From assembly GCA_016780245.1 (NCBI GenBank), contig JADHME010000002.1, positions 1 to 64,000 of the forward strand: DNA of 64,000 nt, written 5' to 3'. Made by a program: the position numbers and the translations under genes. Within the stretch, counting starts at the first letter, position 1; every line of letters begins with the position of its first letter. This stretch comes from Flavobacteriaceae bacterium (GTDB lineage: Bacteria; Bacteroidota; Bacteroidia; Flavobacteriales; Flavobacteriaceae). This document shows, piece after piece, positions 32,721 to 34,431 of this stretch. Below the pieces are notes generated by a model. The model did not search any database. It worked only from the letters and a program-made list of their open reading frames with translations, and had not been told where the DNA came from.

Positions 32721-33605
32721 TTATTTCATGCTTCTATACATTTTTTCAATTACTATAACATGTGGAAAAGTAATTGCTGCCAGAAAGGTAAAAATAATAG
32801 GAAGAAGATCGCTATTATCAATTTCAGTGTAGTTATAGAACAAAATTAAAAAGATAATAGCCAGAATAAAATAAGGCATAGAATTTAATAAATATCTATT
32901 TAAACTATTGGAATTATTACTTCCATAAATATACTTTACCTGGTCCTTTATTGACAGTATACTATGAAAAAAGATAAAATAAACTGAGAAGCATAAAATT
33001 AATGTTGAACTTAATGATAGAAAATAAAAAAGAACAAAAAACAAAATCTCACTAAAAATAAAAGATGTCAGATATTTATTAATAACTAAAGTGGATATAT
33101 ATACAATTGAAACTGTAATTAAAATTATATTCAAGGTACTGGAATTCAAAAAGTTAATTTTAAATGATAAAAAAACATTATTTACAGTATCAATATTATT
33201 CATAAAAATTATTGTAAATAGTATAATTCCATGAGATACAATAGATATAAACCTGTAATTGTTTTTTAAACTTCTAGTTATTGGTATCGCTTCCAAATGT
33301 TGCTCACCAAAATGGTAGATAGATACAATAATAAAAGTAACTAAGGCAAATGAAGGGAAAAGATAAAAGAAGATTAACCCAACAAAAACAACACCTACAT
33401 ATGCAAAAAACGTCCTAAATTGACTAAAATTTGATATAGATTTTGAATTTTTCTTAATTATTAACAAGTCATTTGCACCATGGATTAGTCCAACAGATAA
33501 AACAAGTGCAAACCCTAACATATCCTGGTAATTTGCTGATAATAAATAGCTTAATGTTAAAAAAATTGTAAAAACAGCTATTCTGAATATTATAATTTTT
33601 GTCAC
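32721..33605 (-). CDS. blh: Brp/Blh family putative beta-carotene 15,15'-dioxygenase (GTG start)
   Basis: Polytopic protein with family-type His motifs LIHGANDLLII, SIYHFGEQHL and FFHSILSIKDQ; adjacent to the rhodopsin gene. Confidence 0.82.
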   Translation of the reverse strand: MTKIIIFRIAVFTIFLTLSYLLSANYQDMLGFALVLSVGLIHGANDLLIIKKNSKSISNFSQFRTFFAYVGVVFVGLIFFYLFPSFALVTFIIVSIYHFGEQHLEAIPITRSLKNNYRFISIVSHGIILFTIIFMNNIDTVNNVFLSFKINFLNSSTLNIILITVSIVYISTLVINKYLTSFIFSEILFFVLFYFLSLSSTLILCFSVYFIFFHSILSIKDQVKYIYGSNNSNSLNRYLLNSMPYFILAIIFLILFYNYTEIDNSDLLPIIFTFLAAITFPHVIVIEKMYRSMK

Positions 33606-33714
33606 AATTCATTAAATATTTGATAAAAAAAGATATGATTTTTTTTTAAATAATCTTTTTTTACTCCATTATTTTATTTAATTTACTTTTCTATAAACAA
33701 TAATTAATTTAATT

Positions 33715-34431
33715 ATGGAAAATTTATTAAGTATTTTACCAGTTTTAGCTACTGACTTAAGCTTGACTGATTTCACTTTTTGGATTGGGTTTGCTGCAAT
33801 GTTTGCATCTACTCTTTTCTTTTTCTCTGCTATGAATTTAGTAGCTGATAAGTGGAAGACTTCAATGTTAGTTTCAGCTCTTATTACTGGTATCGCAGCT
33901 CTTCACTATTATTATATGAGAAATGCTGCCATGGAAGGCGATATAACTACTGCCTATAGATATGTTGATTGGATTCTAACTGTACCACTTATGTGTGTTG
34001 AGTTTTATCTAATTTTAAAGCCATCTGGTGCTACAAAAAGTCTATTATGGAAGTTAATCGGTCTTTCAGTCGTGATGCTTGTTACCGGATATTTCGGAGA
34101 AGCAGGTATCGGACCACTAGATGCTCAGCTATGGGGTCTTGTTTCAGGTCTAGCATACTTCTGGATATTATATGAAGTAGCTATGGGTGGCGCAGCACAG
34201 CTTGCTAAATCAGCAGGTGGAAACGTAGAGAGTGCGCATAAAATGCTAGTTAAATTCGTATTTATTGGTTGGGCAATTTATCCTATTGGATATATGGCTG
34301 GAACTGATGGATGGTATAGCGGTCTATTTGGATTCTTAGATGGTCAAATGGATGTTATTTATAACATAGGTGATGCAGTTAACAAAATCGGTTTTGGTCT
34401 TGTTGTGTATAATCTTGCTGTATCTAAGTAA
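33715..34431 (+). CDS. Proteorhodopsin, DTE-motif putative proton pump, green-type
   Basis: RYVDWILTVPLMCVEFY gives D85/T89/E96 with Met93 at the tuning site; H64 (ALHYYYMR); Schiff-base K224 (GDAVNKIGFGL); 7 TM. Confidence 0.97.
   Translation: MENLLSILPVLATDLSLTDFTFWIGFAAMFASTLFFFSAMNLVADKWKTSMLVSALITGIAALHYYYMRNAAMEGDITTAYRYVDWILTVPLMCVEFYLILKPSGATKSLLWKLIGLSVVMLVTGYFGEAGIGPLDAQLWGLVSGLAYFWILYEVAMGGAAQLAKSAGGNVESAHKMLVKFVFIGWAIYPIGYMAGTDGWYSGLFGFLDGQMDVIYNIGDAVNKIGFGLVVYNLAVSK

Follow-up and report, generated by a model that had tools for sequence, protein, structure and literature searches.

A flavobacterial proteorhodopsin that shares the fenestration glycine of its clade and probably partners a 3-hydroxylated carotenoid

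Does the proteorhodopsin (PR) encoded in a 64,000-nucleotide stretch of flavobacterial DNA (the window) use a carotenoid as a light-harvesting antenna? The question arose from a first-pass annotation, which read a glycine in helix E of the predicted protein as a side opening (fenestration) that would admit a carotenoid to the retinal and proposed that either a hydroxylated or a keto-carotenoid might be bound. The features that bear on the answer are collected in Table 1.

Table 1 Positions of the PR gene, its pocket residues and the genes of retinal and carotenoid synthesis. Coordinates without a contig refer to the window; G000 is the draft genome.
Feature	Position	Strand	Basis
Proteorhodopsin gene, 238 aa	33715..34431	+	ORF/translation; PF01036; 63% identical to NM-R1 (9jou)
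Trp140-Gly141 codons, helix E	34132..34137	+	Alignment with XR, GR, Kin4B8, NM-R1, GPR and BPR; AlphaFold helix
Tyr193, equivalent of XR Tyr207/Kin4B8 Tyr204 (carotenoid pocket)	34291..34293	+	Alignment; role from PMC12308411
Thr197, aligned with Kin4B8 Ser208	34303..34305	+	Alignment; PMC12308411
blh, beta-carotene 15,15'-dioxygenase, retinal synthesis	32721..33605	-	TIGR03753, PF15461
109-bp AT-rich intergenic region between blh and the PR gene	33606..33714	.	Sequence
crtB, with crtZ directly downstream	G000:C44, 1091-1825 and 1912-2295		Genome search
crtY beside a polyprenyl synthase gene	G000:C16		Synthase named by eye
crtI, C-terminal part at contig edge	G000:C4		
crtA-like, crtD and cruF in a row	G000:C48 (L046:14333-17098)		

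The PR reading frame is intact and its match to the Pfam Bac_rhodopsin family (PF01036) spans residues 17-236 (E 2e-43). The retinal lysine K224, together with the seven long helices of the AlphaFold model (mean pLDDT 85, with residues 137-156 modeled as helix), identifies the product as a seven-helix microbial rhodopsin. H64, R82, D85, T89, M93, E96, D220 and K224 are all present, and the Asp-Thr-Glu triad (acceptor D85, T89 and donor E96) is conserved in all 80 relatives, as are H64 and R82, which belong to the counterion complex. D85/T89/E96, M93 and K224 had been named in the first-pass annotation, and a reference alignment matched them to the pump residues and the tuning site, where M93 is the green-type residue. 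By these residues the product is a green-type proteorhodopsin of the outward H+ pump type, and pumping is its predicted activity.

To place the glycine we used MAFFT alignments in which the reference residues were taken from PDB chains. Gly141 fell opposite XR Gly156, GR Gly178, Kin4B8 Gly153 and NM-R1 (9jou) Gly142, with W140 aligned to the Trp that precedes the Gly in all four proteins. In the SAR86-type PRs the residue opposite is Phe, F152 of GPR and F153 of BPR (F136 of the GPR 7b03 chain is F152 in GPR numbering because chain D81 is D97). The by-eye placement of G141 at Phe152 of the SAR86 green PR was thus correct, and the sequence alignment with XR, GR and Kin4B8, the proteins that the annotation had named for a check, put Gly, rather than a bulky aromatic residue, at the fenestration position. 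An alignment artefact was ruled out, as the PDB-reference, family, genus and phylum alignments agree and the downstream segment is ungapped. In Kin4B8 mutants the glycine is necessary, although its sufficiency is not proven. The remainder of the pocket is also recognizable. Tyr193 occupies the site of a tyrosine with a pocket role in XR and Kin4B8 (PMC12308411), and Thr197 replaces Ser yet keeps a hydroxyl side chain at the site of Kin4B8 Ser208, a residue reported to be crucial for binding of 3-hydroxy-carotenoids (PMC12308411).

The best PDB match of the AlphaFold model, found with Foldseek, was 9jou (63% identity, rmsd 1.7 Å), a cryo-EM structure entitled 'zeaxanthin-bound light-driven proton pumping rhodopsin, NM-R1'. 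We take NM-R1 to be the proteorhodopsin of Nonlabens marinus and 9jou to belong to Fujiwara et al. 2025, Nat Microbiol. NM-R1 has the same D-T-M-E residues, the same Trp-Gly in helix E and likewise Thr at the Kin4B8 Ser208 site. Helix F is identical in the two proteins at all 13 positions of residues 185-197, whereas helix E (138-152) is identical at 11 of 15, four residues around the Gly being different. Carotenoid binding has been demonstrated for NM-R1 and is predicted for the protein studied here. Another flavobacterial PR, KR1 of Dokdonia eikasta (BAN14807), which we liken to it by description rather than by sequence, is reported to bind lutein and zeaxanthin (PMC12308411). Kin4B8 (8i2z) and Salinibacter xanthorhodopsin (3ddl) share the fenestration Gly and the pocket Tyr, but both are of the XR family, have Leu at the tuning site and are only 29% and 33.5% identical to the query; xanthorhodopsin moreover uses the keto-carotenoid salinixanthin. 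Conversely, the SAR86-type green and blue PRs (7b03 and 4knf; 43-45% identity) share fold and pump motif and differ in having Phe at the fenestration position. Membership in the xanthorhodopsin family proper was rejected, given 29-36% identity to XR, GR and Kin4B8 versus 63% to NM-R1 and 45% to GPR, and M93 rather than Leu. By sequence, the query protein is a member of the Bacteroidota (flavobacterial) proteorhodopsin clade.

Within that clade the glycine is no rarity. It was found in all 29 PRs of the family sample, all 18 genus PRs in which the site is covered, all 80 named genomes and all 29 rhodopsins of the phylum sample (about six of xanthorhodopsin type), the four sets being partly overlapping and their counts therefore not independent. 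A 2026 study likewise reported Gly in all Bacteroidota proteorhodopsins of its set (PMC13043013). The idea that the residue is rare among PRs of this group was discarded, since it is invariant in every relative examined, and it cannot serve as the distinctive trait for which it had been taken. As judged from these alignments, Gly141 is not unusual for a flavobacterial PR and looks special only against the SAR86 protein; the predicted side opening is real yet common to essentially all relatives.

The first-pass annotation had seen no crt genes in the window and considered the pigment source unknown, but it overlooked the retinal gene blh, which adjoins the PR gene divergently; the source is now largely resolved. 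The blh product scored 160.9 bits against TIGR03753 (cut-off 95) and was also above the cut-off for PF15461. Both promoters presumably lie in the intergenic region between the two genes. The divergent PR-blh pair is the usual arrangement, being present at 26 of 29 family loci (one further locus has blh downstream of the PR gene) and at 75 of 80 named loci.

A search of the draft genome (1.07 Mb, 74% complete) found crtB, crtY, crtZ, crtD, cruF, a crtA-like gene and a partial crtI, a set whose predicted product is a hydroxylated carotenoid. CrtZ is a protein of 154 residues with His-box motifs. The crtA-like gene matched NF045923 (E 3e-41), crtD was above the NF042421 cut-off, and cruF was assigned by PF04240. 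Such a set yields myxol in Nonlabens spongiae, zeaxanthin being the other predicted product (PMC11855829); the genes form a single cluster in Nonlabens, whereas here they are scattered over several places. We read the crtA-like-crtD-cruF run as a sign that this small-genome marine flavobacterium has a pathway to monocyclic carotenoids of the myxol type. Retinal synthesis itself depends on the crt genes as far as beta-carotene, so finding them permits an antenna without proving one; the genes that point to a xanthophyll are crtZ, crtD and cruF. The protein encoded beside crtB (L203:184-1020, minus strand) carries almost identical EKVEEVVK repeats in succession close to its C-terminus.

Of the two genes that the annotation had suggested seeking in the rest of the genome, crtZ was thus found, whereas the PF00487 matches of the draft genome included no candidate for the ketolase CrtW. 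The only PF00487 protein (C22; L091:1189-2235, 348 residues) has, by eye, AlkB-type His motifs and looks like an AlkB-like membrane hydroxylase/desaturase rather than CrtW. Most genomes of the genus carry it once, and each of the 20 genus genomes with a PF00487 match has exactly one. The window itself encodes an FA_hydroxylase-family protein (1474-2295) that is not CrtZ; its similarity to OlsE, an ornithine lipid hydroxylase, is weak at 82 bits and falls short of the cut-off.

Given the hydroxy-carotenoid gene set and the lack of a ketolase candidate, a 3-hydroxylated carotenoid is the likely partner. We consider it very probable that the protein is a green-light proton pump of the Bacteroidota clade that binds such a pigment (zeaxanthin or myxol) as NM-R1 does. 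The hydroxylated half of the original proposal is accordingly strengthened as a prediction, because the nearest solved homologue is zeaxanthin-bound and crtZ is in the same genome. The keto half fared poorly. XR and GR do use keto-carotenoids (PMC12308411), but against a native 4-keto-carotenoid as in xanthorhodopsin stands the PF00487 result, which gave only the AlkB-like protein; the pocket, moreover, resembles that of NM-R1 and not that of XR. We regard this reading as very nearly excluded.

A more serious competitor, although in our view an improbable one, is that the Gly has been kept by descent and the pump runs on retinal alone, with carotenoids serving only retinal supply and photoprotection and a lipid filling the opening. 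A residue invariant across the clade tells nothing specific about the source species, and carotenoid genes are also retained in some genus members in which no PR was detected (G165), a caveat to the explanation that we prefer. However, invariance over long divergence suggests selection on the Gly, and the retinal-alone pump would have to be reconciled with a zeaxanthin-bound nearest solved homologue and with retention of crtZ in a streamlined genome.

In the antenna reading that we favor, CrtE, CrtB, CrtI and CrtY would make beta-carotene, which Blh would cleave to the retinal that binds Lys224. CrtZ would hydroxylate part of the carotenoid pool to give zeaxanthin, and CruF, CrtD and the CrtA-like enzyme would lead to myxol. 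The 3-hydroxylated beta-ring would then enter through the Gly141 opening and come to lie beside the ring of the retinal, in the manner of NM-R1 and Kin4B8, and the bound carotenoid may transfer blue-green excitation, accelerate the photocycle, or both. Carotenoid-protein pairing is specific, in that Kin4B8 binds salinixanthin without energy transfer. A bolder proposal, which we hold tentatively and would not bet on, is that these small-genome pelagic flavobacteria natively pair their rhodopsin with myxol, or with a derivative of it, in place of zeaxanthin, the pigment being held via its 3-hydroxy-beta end, and that pathway and rhodopsin are gained and lost together. If a carotenoid is bound, an uncultured marine flavobacterium of this type would harvest blue-green light beyond the band of retinal itself. 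Carotenoid-aided light harvest has already been published for marine Bacteroidota; what the present analysis adds is a further genome that allows rhodopsin, retinal enzyme and the gene set for a hydroxy-carotenoid to be considered jointly.

Elsewhere in the genus, which otherwise bears PR, gene remnants suggest that rhodopsin phototrophy was lost in at least two species, an assembly artefact being possible. Neither of the two drafts (G153 and G156, each 82% complete) contains a full blh. The G153 draft gave no convincing match to crtB, crtI, crtY, crtZ or crtD, and crtB, crtZ and crtD were not found in that of G156. Both genomes have relics of PR and blh between argS and folD (L200 in G153:C15 and L115 in G156:C77). 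In G156 approximately residues 1-38 and 218-238 of the PR survive, along with the N-terminal part of blh, and in G153 only the ends of both genes are left.
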